The notes under the pieces: model-generated
The model's database searches: none
The model's input: the letters and a program-made list of their open reading frames with translations, nothing else
What the model was told of the DNA's origin: nothing
Shown: positions 20,987 through 25,659 of the stretch, one piece after another
How positions within the stretch are numbered: position 1 is the first letter of the stretch
Layout: every line of letters begins with the position of its first letter
Position numbers and translations under genes: made by a program
Assembly (NCBI GenBank): GCA_902518985.1
Contig: CABYIF010000001.1
Location: 72,814 to 105,200, forward strand
Reading direction: 5' to 3'
DNA from: an uncultured Alphaproteobacteria bacterium
Lineage (GTDB): Bacteria; Pseudomonadota; Alphaproteobacteria; HIMB59; GCA-002718135
Length of the DNA stretch: 32,387 nucleotides

Positions 20987-21616
20987 TTACTTAAAAAAAG
21001 ATTTTATAAATGTAAATAAATTTAGGAAAGATCCATAACGACCAAAGAAAATAACGTCTTTTTCAGTTATAGTTAAGCATATACACCCCTCATCATTAGA
21101 AGCAATTGGAGTGTGTTTAATTTTTTGGTCATTAATCTGGATGTCACCTTTTTGATATGTCCCGAATTCATCACAGAAACTTCCACTAAGAACGAGGATG
21201 TATTCCTTCCCACCATGAGAGTGTAATGGAACTGAAGCACCTGGGTCCATCTTGATAAGCTTAAGATCATCATCATCCTGAAATTTTGGATCAAATTCAC
21301 TAAAGCCCTTATAAATTTGTTTCCAATTAATTTTATTTAAAGGTCCAACAAGCTTGGTAATTGGGTTTAAATTTTTTTGGGCAGAGATTTTTTCGTGTGA
21401 ATTGTCAGAAATACAGTCCGAGTATTTTAGGGTTTTAATTGGAACATCTTTATTTTCAATTAAATTGTCACCCAATATATTTTCGAAGGTTAGATTTAGC
21501 TTTGATGCACTGGAATTAAGGTACAGATATGTAGATGCTAGTAGTGATTTTGAAGGTCCCAAAGACCCTGAAGCAAAGTCAAAGACAAGCTGATTTTTTA
21601 CCAAAATTCCGTTCAT
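20987..21616 (-). CDS. chrR: ChrR-like anti-sigma factor with C-terminal cupin
   Basis: Partner of the ECF sigma factor encoded immediately upstream (ATGA overlap). The N-terminal anti-sigma domain keeps VFDFASGSLGPSKSLLAS. However, the zinc ligands of R. sphaeroides ChrR (His6, His31, Cys35, Cys38) are replaced: no N-terminal His, and Tyr30, Asn34 and Ala37 at the aligned places. The C-terminal cupin (about 120-190) is intact: PLHSHGGKEYILVLSGSF has the HxHxxxE ligands, followed by DEFGTYQKGD and His in KHTPIAS. ChrR normally releases RpoE upon singlet-oxygen or organic hydroperoxide stress. The cupin state here suggests stress sensing is retained while zinc-dependent anti-sigma folding is not. 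Confidence 0.85.
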   Translation of the reverse strand: MNGILVKNQLVFDFASGSLGPSKSLLASTYLYLNSSASKLNLTFENILGDNLIENKDVPIKTLKYSDCISDNSHEKISAQKNLNPITKLVGPLNKINWKQIYKGFSEFDPKFQDDDDLKLIKMDPGASVPLHSHGGKEYILVLSGSFCDEFGTYQKGDIQINDQKIKHTPIASNDEGCICLTITEKDVIFFGRYGSFLNLFTFIKSFFK

Positions 21617-22146
21617 ATAATTCTCTGCATTTTTATTAAAATATGCCTTATTCTAGATTTAACTGTCCCAAGTGGAATTTCAAGCTCTTCAGATATTTTT
21701 TTATGACTTTTATTCTCAAAAAAATTCATTTTGATCATTTTTTGCTGATCTTTATCAAGTTCTTTATTAATTCTAGCCACTTGGTCTTTAACCTCGCCTT
21801 CATTTATTTTATCAGTCTCATTATTATCATATAAAAACTCTCTTATATCTTCTTCTTTAAAGTCAATTTTCGAATTTTTCCTTAAAAAGTCTACTTTTTT
21901 GTTTCTTGCTATTGTGTAAACCCAAGTTGAAACAGCAGCTTTTGAGGCATCATATTGATGAGATTTTGCCCAAACTGTGCTTAAAACCTCTTGTGTTAAT
22001 TCCTCTGAGTTATCAGGCAATAAGCCATTTTGAATAAAATAGGCATTGATTTTTGGAGCTAGAAAATCAAATAAAGTTGAAAAAGCCATTTCGTCGCGAC
22101 CACTACTTATTCTCAGCATTAATTCCTCAAGTTCTAGTTTATTCAT
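21613..22146 (-). CDS. rpoE: ECF sigma factor, RpoE/ECF11-like
   Basis: A 177-residue group IV sigma factor with only regions 2 and 4. Region 2 spans about 18-90 (AFSTLFDFLAPKINAYFIQNG, SEELTQEVLSTVWAKS, STWVYTIARNKKVDFLRK). Region 4 spans about 118-172, with the helix-turn-helix HKKISEELEIPLGTVKSRIRH. Pairing with a ChrR-type cupin protein assigns it to the ECF11-type photooxidative/peroxide stress sigma factors. The stop overlaps the chrR start (ATGA). A weak match to the RpoE promoter pattern (TGATTA-N17-TATAG, 22177-22150) ends three bases before its ATG, suggesting possible autoregulation. It is divergent from the IalB-family gene. Confidence 0.92.
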   Translation of the reverse strand: MNKLELEELMLRISSGRDEMAFSTLFDFLAPKINAYFIQNGLLPDNSEELTQEVLSTVWAKSHQYDASKAAVSTWVYTIARNKKVDFLRKNSKIDFKEEDIREFLYDNNETDKINEGEVKDQVARINKELDKDQQKMIKMNFFENKSHKKISEELEIPLGTVKSRIRHILIKMQRII

Positions 22147-22204
22147 ATTCTATAAATTTAATATCATTCCTTAATCACTCTTAACTATTAGCGTAAGATA
22201 TACT

Positions 22205-22218: not shown

Positions 22219-22689
22219 ATGAAAATATTTTTAATAATTTTTTCTATAATATATCTGTCCCTGTCTTTTTCAGCCTTTTCTCTTGAAAAAGGTAAATGGA
22301 GTTTTGTTAAGACAGATGAATATTGTTATGTAGGTAGCCTAGCTATAGAAACAGATTTACCTCCAGAAAAGATCAGGGGAGATTATTATATACTAGTCTA
22401 CAAAAACATAGGTGACACTGAAACAGTAATTCAAATTGAAGCTGGCTACGATTATAAATTAGGATCAAAAATAAATGTTCAGATAGATAAAGGCGATTAT
22501 CAGTTTTATACAACAGAAGATTTACAGGGAGCGGCTTGGACTGAAGAAGACAAGAAAGTAATATACGCAATGAAAAAAGGATTAAAACTAAAAGTAACTG
22601 GGCAATCAACAAGAGGCACTATTACAAACGATATTTACACTCTCAAAGGCTTTACAGCTTCAGTTAATAAGTTAGAAGCTGATTGTTAA
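22219..22689 (+). CDS. secreted IalB-family (invasion-associated locus B) protein
   Basis: A periplasmic or secreted protein of the PF06776 family. A signal peptide covers about residues 1-21 (MKIFLIIFSIIYLSLSFSAFS), with cleavage before LEKGKWSF. The mature part shows WSFVKTDEYCYVGS, then IQIEAGYDYKLGSKINVQIDKGDYQF, AWTEEDKKVIYAMKKGLKLKVTGQSTRGTITNDIYTL split over the last third, and a terminal Cys. The early Cys and the terminal Cys could form a disulfide. IalB relatives are widespread in free-living alphaproteobacteria; despite the name they have no proven virulence role there. The stop is directly followed by the argG ATG (TAAATG). It is divergent from the sigma factor gene, so it is a candidate member of that regulon (inference). 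Confidence 0.85.
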   Translation: MKIFLIIFSIIYLSLSFSAFSLEKGKWSFVKTDEYCYVGSLAIETDLPPEKIRGDYYILVYKNIGDTETVIQIEAGYDYKLGSKINVQIDKGDYQFYTTEDLQGAAWTEEDKKVIYAMKKGLKLKVTGQSTRGTITNDIYTLKGFTASVNKLEADC

Positions 22690-23884: not shown

Positions 23885-24736
23885 ATGGGTTATGGTGATG
23901 ACATAATGATCACAGCTCATGCTACGAACTTGAAAAAAAAATTTCCCGAAAGACAAATTGTAATTGGTAATATTAAAAAGAAAGAAGCCTACCACTCAGT
24001 AGTTTATGATAACAATCCAAATATAGCAGATTGTAGAAATGTTGATCTAAAAAAACCAATTCATATTATTGATTATCATGAAGGTAATAGACCATATATT
24101 GATTATAAAAAAAGCTTATCCTCAAAAAAATATATTTGGAACAAAAATTTCAAACCAACTCCTGGAGAATTATATTTCACAAAAGATGAGAATAATAATG
24201 CGGATGAAGTAATTGATAAAGCACATAAATTTTGGCAAAAAAATCATAAACAAAAAGCAAAAAAAATTATATTTGTTGAAACGTCATCTACAAAAATTGA
24301 TGATTATCAATATAGCATAAAACACAAAAATAAGGATTGGGGACATTCAAATTGGATAAATTTAATTAATCAAATAAAAGATAAATATTTAATTATTCAA
24401 TCAGTGCACGAAAAGTCAACAAAAATAGATGGAGTTTATTCAGATTTAAAAATTAATTTTAGATTAGCTTGTGCAGTAATTAATAAGTGTGATCTTTATG
24501 TGGGTCCTGAAGGTGGCTTTGGTCATGTCGCCGCTGCATTAAAAAAGAATGCCGTAATATATTTTGGCGGATGGATATCACCCAATGTTATTGGTTATGA
24601 CTCACATTACAATATTTATTATGATCATAAAGATTCTCCATGTGGTGAATTTAAAAAACTATGTAGTCATTGTGAAAAAGCTAGAAAAAATATCAAAGTT
24701 GATACTTTTAGAGAATATATAGAAAAAGCTCTATGA
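23885..24736 (+). CDS. GT9-like glycosyltransferase, copy 1
   Basis: A 283-residue protein of the ADP-heptosyltransferase-like (GT9) type. The N-terminus starts at once with the glycine loop MGYGDDIMITAHATNLKKKF, without the first Rossmann strand that normally precedes such a loop. The C-terminal donor-binding part reads CDLYVGPEGGFGHVAAALKK near 198-217, followed by VIYFGGWISPNVIGY. A terminal three-cysteine motif, SPCGEFKKLCSHC, is shared with its neighbour copy. Donor and acceptor are unknown. It follows argG by four bases, and a near-identical-length paralogue follows after 74 bp. Very Lys/Asn-rich, more AT-rich in feel than argG. Confidence 0.7.
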   Translation: MGYGDDIMITAHATNLKKKFPERQIVIGNIKKKEAYHSVVYDNNPNIADCRNVDLKKPIHIIDYHEGNRPYIDYKKSLSSKKYIWNKNFKPTPGELYFTKDENNNADEVIDKAHKFWQKNHKQKAKKIIFVETSSTKIDDYQYSIKHKNKDWGHSNWINLINQIKDKYLIIQSVHEKSTKIDGVYSDLKINFRLACAVINKCDLYVGPEGGFGHVAAALKKNAVIYFGGWISPNVIGYDSHYNIYYDHKDSPCGEFKKLCSHCEKARKNIKVDTFREYIEKAL

Positions 24737-24810: not shown

Positions 24811-25659
24811 ATGGGATATGGTGATGACTTAATGATTACTGCATTTGCAGCAAAAATAAAAAAAAAATATCCAGAAAGGCAAGTAGTTATTGGTAATATT
24901 TCTGAAAAAAAAGCATATGACTCAATTGTTTATGAAAATAATCCTAATATAGCTAACTGTAATAATTTGGATTTTTCTAAACCTATACATATAATTAATT
25001 ATCATAATAAAAACAGACCCTACATTAACTACTCCAAAAGCGATAACGTTAGATATGTTTGGAATAGTGATTTTAGAGTTACTCCTGGAGAATTATATTT
25101 TTCAAATACGGAAGTTAATCAAGCAGAAAAGGTATTTAAGCTTGCTAAAAAGTCTTGGTATGAAAAATATCAAGAAAAATATAAGGGGGTAATTTTTTTT
25201 GAAAGCTCTGCGACTAGATCGCATAGATCAAAGTTTGAAAATAAATATAAAAATCTTGATTGGGGCTTTGAAAATTGGAAAAAATTAATAAATAAGATTT
25301 CAAGCAAATTTTTGATAATACAATCATCTCACCAAAACACAAAAGTATTAGACAACTCTTTCATATCAAACAAATTAGGTTTTAGAGAGTCTTGCGCACT
25401 TATGAGCAAGTGTGATTTATATATTGGTTCACATGGTGGATTTTCTCATGTTGCAGCAGCACTGGATAAAAAAGCTGTAGTTTACTTTGGTGGTTGGGTG
25501 TCTCCAAATATATTAGGATATCAAACACATCAAAATTTATATTTTGAAAACAGCAAATCTCCTTGTGGGAGCGTAGGAATAAATTGTGATCATTGTCAAA
25601 AAGCAAGGGAATTTATTAAACCTGAAATTTTTGAAGAAAAAATTCTTACTTATTTTTAA
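24811..25659 (+). CDS. GT9-like glycosyltransferase, copy 2
   Basis: Tandem paralogue of the preceding gene, 282 residues. It shares the abrupt start MGYGDDLMITAFAAKIKKK, IGSHGGFSHVAAALDKKAVVYFGG split across the donor site, and the end motif SPCGSVGINCDHC. By eye, about 54 of the first 76 residues are identical to copy 1. The frame is open back to a TAA at 24766 but contains no start codon before this ATG, so the short N-terminus appears genuine. No clear promoter or Shine-Dalgarno is visible in the 74-bp spacer. The 3' end is 24 bp from the convergent gmd. The pair likely act on successive or related sugar residues (inference). Confidence 0.7.
   Translation: MGYGDDLMITAFAAKIKKKYPERQVVIGNISEKKAYDSIVYENNPNIANCNNLDFSKPIHIINYHNKNRPYINYSKSDNVRYVWNSDFRVTPGELYFSNTEVNQAEKVFKLAKKSWYEKYQEKYKGVIFFESSATRSHRSKFENKYKNLDWGFENWKKLINKISSKFLIIQSSHQNTKVLDNSFISNKLGFRESCALMSKCDLYIGSHGGFSHVAAALDKKAVVYFGGWVSPNILGYQTHQNLYFENSKSPCGSVGINCDHCQKAREFIKPEIFEEKILTYF

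Follow-up and report, generated by a model that had tools for sequence, protein, structure and literature searches.

The window, a 32,387-nucleotide stretch of DNA from an uncultured alphaproteobacterium, carries a ChrR-like anti-σ factor gene paired with the gene for an ECF σ factor (Table 1). The encoded protein matches Rhodobacter sphaeroides ChrR in the PDB (phmmer match 2z2s_B, E 4e-15). It scores 52.6 bits against Pfam Cupin_7 (PF12973), above the gathering cut-off of 27, and 112.6 bits against NCBIfam TIGR02451 (anti_sig_ChrR), below the curated cut-off of 124.5. Strand, length and the alignment to ChrR all agree with the original prediction of a ChrR-like anti-σ factor at this open reading frame. 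No second ChrR match was present in the window genome, searched as available (about 70% complete). Elsewhere in the window, two adjoining tandem paralogues (23885–24736 and 24811–25659) are 54% identical over 279 aligned positions.

Table 1. Features of the σ/ChrR locus, in window coordinates.
Feature	Position	Strand	Evidence
ChrR-like anti-σ factor, 209 aa	20987..21616	(-)	Cupin_7, TIGR02451, phmmer to 2z2s_B
N-terminal anti-σ domain (ASD), codons 1–62, without His or Cys	21431..21616	(-)	sequence; AF2 model helices; dN/dS 0.082
Codons Tyr30 to Ala37, sites of ChrR His31/Cys35/Cys38	21506..21529	(-)	alignment to ChrR; invariant in 66/66 genus proteins
Cupin domain with His132, His134, Glu138, His168	20987..21340	(-)	Cupin_7; ligand alignment; dN/dS
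ECF σ factor, 177 aa, partner gene	21613..22146	(-)	Sigma70_r2 + Sigma70_r4_2 domains
Conserved block between σ gene and divergent gene	22180..22203	(-)	conserved in genus main-clade rows listed
Divergent IalB-family protein, common intergenic region with σ gene	22219..22689	(+)	PF06776, 7.1e-09

In R. sphaeroides ChrR the reported ligands are His6, His31, Cys35 and Cys38 in the N-terminal anti-σ domain (ASD) and His141, His143, Glu147 and His177 in the cupin (PMC6852236). The window protein keeps the cupin set, predicted as HxHxxxE plus a later His and found at His132, His134, Glu138 and His168 (counted from Met1). At the four ASD sites it has a non-His residue early on, then Tyr30, Asn34 and Ala37. 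Residues 1–67 contain neither His nor Cys, and therefore no ligand of the window protein has merely shifted. The ligand pattern given for zinc-binding anti-σ (ZAS) proteins, H/C-x24/25-H-x3-C-x2-C (PMC6432622), is found neither in the window protein nor across its genus.

Of the 101 genomes in the genus, most of them incomplete, 79 have a ChrR match; within the family to which the genus belongs, one of six genera does. Tyr30, Asn34 and Ala37 are invariant in all 66 distinct proteins of the genus (drawn from 95 loci, with source records that partly overlap), so the predicted ligand-free sites, with no early His and with these three residues, are borne out both in the window and throughout the genus. 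A sequencing or start-site artefact is ruled out, as the same residues recur in 66/66 distinct proteins. Ligands at shifted positions, named beforehand as the case against the prediction, were found in none of these proteins and are ruled out for the 66 compared. Read by eye, all 12 rows listed for a divergent clade of the genus carry Tyr30, Asn34 and Ala37; row L124 among them combines a His at position 6 with loss of the other three ligand sites. Mixed ASD and cupin coordination has been suggested for oxidised ChrR (PMC6432622), and on that model the window ASD might bind a metal through other residues or share that of the cupin. This reading is highly improbable given an N-terminal region (residues 1–67) devoid of His and Cys; moreover, none of the 66 genus proteins has a Cys in residues 1–62, where the sole recurrent His, at residue 59 (37/66), is absent from the window protein.

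Over 1304 pairs from 67 coding sequences, pooled dN/dS is lowest in the cupin (0.032), higher in the ASD (0.082) and highest in the linker (0.195). Judged by these ratios and by the conservation of the pair, the ASD evolves under purifying selection and the two genes are not decaying in the genus. The σ stop and the ChrR start overlap as ATGA in the window; of the 95 genus loci, 94 have an overlap of exactly 4 nt and the last has a single base in common. With matches to both σ70 domains and this overlap, the σ partner is intact and overlapping, as had been anticipated; the ATGA overlap in 94/95 loci, the purifying selection on the ASD and the fixed ligand substitutes agree, at the level of sequence, with the further expectation that the pair is probably functional. 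The ASD might instead have ceased to bind σ, leaving the σ factor constitutive or otherwise controlled and only the cupin in use, as could be supposed from the reported requirement of zinc binding for inhibition of σE by ChrR in R. sphaeroides (PMC6852236). We consider such a loss improbable, since the dN/dS of the ASD is below that of the linker, the three substituted residues are invariant and the overlap is nearly constant.

An AF2 model built with 40 genus sequences has a mean pLDDT of 66.4 and a pTM of 0.62, with ten-residue blocks of the first 60 residues at pLDDT 52–82. This moderate model places three N-terminal helices at residues 2–15, 20–32 and 34–44 (numbered from protein residue 2); the class I ASD fold has four. 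Against the PDB it comes closest to ChrR bound to σE (2q1z; Z 18.8 and rmsd 1.9 across 136 residues, spanning model residues 5–184), and the first cupin match other than ChrR follows at Z 11.6. The 136 aligned residues exceed the cupin, and the match therefore includes part of the helical bundle. AF2 may be drawing here on ChrR structures in its training data; the model agrees with a zinc-free bundle of the ChrR type and is not proof of one.

Across the order, TIGR02451 matches 127 of 162 genomes, in two of seven genera, and one genome (1/162) rises above the curated cut-off, at 124.8 with its neighbours in frame. The second matching genus, in family f2, includes a 1.4 Mb single-contig genome and encodes a ChrR homologue with a shortened N-terminus. 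Six aligned f2 rows have no ASD ligand set and, by eye, the first ASD helix is largely gone, an observation that lends some weight to the loss of σ binding considered above. On a quick tree the two families of the order form one group (support 87, not starred).

Beyond the order, we compared ChrR homologues from a sample of the class in which TIGR02451 matches 162 of 385 genomes; the list used stops short of the lowest-scoring matches, and most of its rows were taken up, a few such as G508 and G418 being left aside. The alignment holds 156 proteins among the matches listed; ligand loss may well be commoner among weak matches. The four cupin ligands (HHEH) are present in all 156 aligned homologues among the matches listed. 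The 142 proteins aligned from outside the order, again among the matches listed, comprise 109 with four ASD ligands, none with three, four with two, 12 with one and 17 with none, where the His6 count depends on the alignment (L209, L149 and L244 have a His beside the His6 column). Row L267 of f2 was scored as having one ligand, apparently through an N-terminal alignment artefact. The ASD set is incomplete in 33 of the 142 rows and 19 of 67 families outside the order among the matches listed, and five of these 19 families also hold full-ligand proteins. The families concerned, including f40, f122, f20 and f67, have the same kind of ligand loss as the window protein, with the cupin kept.

Among the matches listed, both Cys are lost in 29 of the 33 ligand-less rows outside the order (a count independent of the His6 alignment), and His31 is retained in 15 of 33. 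Ser, Asp or Asn, residues of the helix-capping type, replace Cys35 in 22 of the 33 ligand-less rows among the matches listed, against a background of 11.8% for these three residues in that stretch, in a binomial comparison that treats related rows as independent. Ala or Ser replaces Cys38 in 20 of the 33 (among the matches listed). On the quick tree, built without the ligand columns and without rows L265 (a fragment) and L260 (frameshifted), the ligand label needs 13 changes by parsimony, compared with a shuffled mean of about 39; the starred branches alone force two changes. The tree leaves 54 of its 151 inner branches open and has no inferred root. The ligand-less homologues of other families fall apart from the window order on this tree, with modest support. 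A unique loss of the ASD ligands is ruled out by the class alignment, the 19 of 67 families and the quick tree. Two side observations concern gene structure: L254 carries a tandem pair of ChrR homologues, encoded on the same strand and each with the full set of four ligands, and at L260:698-1399 a ChrR homologue is split across two overlapping frames, probably by a frameshift.

We counted a row as having a σ neighbour if a σ open reading frame lay on the same strand, at most 800 nt upstream of the ChrR frame, using a model grown from the window σ factor. A σ gene lies close upstream in 97 of 109 full-ligand rows versus 36 of 47 others among the matches listed, and in 12 of 12 rows of the order. 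Outside the order, the ligand-less rows have such a neighbour less often than the full-ligand rows (23/33 versus 97/109 among the matches listed; Fisher p 0.012), a difference that would favour an ASD detached from its σ partner, with a model that may miss divergent σ factors.

Promoters of the ECF11 type in Shewanella are described as having TGATCC and CGTATT/CGTAAT-like elements (PMC4336711). We searched upstream of the σ genes with the pattern TGAT[C/A]-N16-19-CGTA or TGATC-N15-18-CGT, which matches 1.3% of shuffled sequences that preserve base composition only. Among the matches listed, such a promoter precedes σ in 72 of 96 full-ligand loci versus 14 of 36 others. The ligand-less loci outside the order have it in 13 of 23 cases, 10 of which retain no more than one ligand (among the matches listed); the frameshifted row, counted separately, has none. 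Several ligand-less families elsewhere keep the classical promoter, unlike the window order, where a weak form occurs in one of 12 rows and the six window-genus rows examined have no match before σ. Read from these upstream sequences, ligand-less versions elsewhere sit in ordinary-looking ECF11 operons, and the window order has departed from the classical promoter. The block at 22180–22203 is unlike the classical ECF11 promoter and is probably a regulatory site; with up to three mismatches allowed, it matches the window genome once. In f2, the rows L100, L104, L262, L263, L267 and L268 have a σ gene with a different conserved upstream block; it matches exactly once in each of two genomes, and one of these has a further site with three mismatches.

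Photolyase and cfa are reported as genes of the RpoE2 regulon in Shewanella (PMC4336711). CMAS genes occur in 17 of 17 chosen genomes of the order and photolyase in 15 of 17. Three clusters followed gene by gene (L297, L298 and L299) run from photolyase through an FAD oxidoreductase, DUF1365 and CMAS to a fifth gene; domains were assigned for L298, in which this fifth gene is DUF2878, and the other two clusters were read by eye. The three clusters adjoin a small gene that, judged by eye, resembles the one for ribosomal protein L33. Inspection by eye of the sequence upstream of the photolyase cluster gave no clear common motif, and over four genomes of the order the ECF11 pattern gave 45 matches, fewer than a reversed-pattern control (55). 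By these two approaches no promoter common to σ and the photolyase/CMAS genes was found. Because the order is without the classical promoter and the scan stayed below its control, we do not assign photolyase or CMAS to the regulon of this σ factor.

Among characterised systems, the window pair is closest to R. sphaeroides ChrR/σE (RpoE), the ECF11 pair of PDB 2Q1Z/2Z2S, with which it has in common the two-domain layout, the cupin ligands, the σ neighbour and the best fold match. Unlike R. sphaeroides ChrR, the window protein is without the HHCC site in the ASD and falls below the TIGR02451 cut-off, and its σ gene is without a TGATCC-type promoter. Other anti-σ factors resemble it in the ASD instead; of these, RskA is a membrane protein, and neither RseA nor RskA is known to have a cupin. 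Both, members of class I, are likewise described as having an anti-σ helical bundle that relies on no zinc motif (PMC7406223; PMC6852236), and RseA, unlike ChrR, is cleaved at the membrane and has no significant sequence similarity to ChrR (PMC6852236). RsiW of Bacillus subtilis is reported to bind independently of zinc (PMC7406223), with σ inhibition insensitive to the absence of zinc (PMC5358783); it keeps its CHCC motif, whereas the window protein has lost the ligands. According to one survey, the Hx3Cx2C motif is absent from about 44% of class I anti-σ domains and present in about 72% of the soluble ones, and zinc and non-zinc proteins mix within groups (PMC7406223). The bundle is said to be holdable by either zinc or protein contacts, RseA having a similar bundle without zinc (PMC6852236). 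The accessible parts of PMC7406223, PMC6852236, PMC6432622, PMC5358783, PMC4336711 and PMC3420878 contain no statement on AS11 (the ChrR group) lacking the zinc motif, and the subscription literature lies mostly outside this scope.

These precedents place the window protein. The original prediction had been of a zinc-free anti-σ fold; that remains the simplest reading, while its singular status does not stand, given ligand-less homologues in 19 of 67 families and published zinc-free ASDs (PMC7406223; PMC6852236). Zinc-free ASDs being known from RseA and RskA (PMC7406223), the window ASD is therefore, as far as sequence comparison reaches, a recurrent variant fixed in its genus rather than a unique protein.

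We favour, with a probability of roughly 0.6, a working ECF11-type σ/ChrR pair in which the ASD would fold and bind σ without zinc and σ would be released through the cupin. The four ASD ligands would have been replaced as a set, with Cys35 giving way to Asn (of the helix-capping type), Cys38 to Ala and His31 to Tyr, and side-chain packing may have taken over the role that zinc plays in R. sphaeroides ChrR, much as protein-protein contacts do in RseA. If the ASD is zinc-free, then release must depend on the cupin, whose metal ligands all remain. The trigger would probably be oxidation or lipid-peroxide signalling, followed by proteolysis.

A working zinc-free anti-σ factor might also have lost the sensing of singlet oxygen (1O2) or peroxide, with a cupin that now responds to something else, for instance a metal, a small ligand or the state of the membrane. 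The oxidisable zinc thiolates of the ASD, whose oxidation has been proposed as perhaps central to the 1O2 response (PMC6432622), are gone, the classical ECF11 promoter is missing before σ in the order, and the blocks upstream of σ differ between clades. On the other hand, the cupin is reported to be needed for the 1O2 response, with Glu147 and His177 of ChrR among the residues necessary for it (PMC6852236), and the cupin ligands are kept; photolyase and CMAS genes are present in the order, and some ligand-less pairs elsewhere retain the classical promoter. Weighing these, we hold such a change of signal to be less likely than release through the cupin by oxidation or lipid-peroxide signalling.

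What exactly the ASD zinc does in the 1O2 response of ChrR is, according to PMC6852236, not known; ligand-less homologues bear directly on the dispute over its part in sensing. As natural ChrR homologues with an intact cupin and no ASD ligands, they separate the idea of zinc oxidation from that of sensing by the cupin; zinc oxidation would be dispensable if they still release σ on exposure to singlet oxygen. Tentatively, and with somewhat less than even confidence, the ASD zinc site may be an optional brace, lost in one piece on many occasions and superseded by helix capping and packing, with photo-oxidative release acting via the cupin alone and zinc oxidation not general in ChrR sensing. Our results suggest that an entire lineage of small-genome, probably marine bacteria uses a σ/ChrR pair without ASD zinc. 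Ligand-less ChrR proteins would best serve as a natural test of zinc-based versus cupin-based sensing, ideally in a culturable lineage with a classical promoter.
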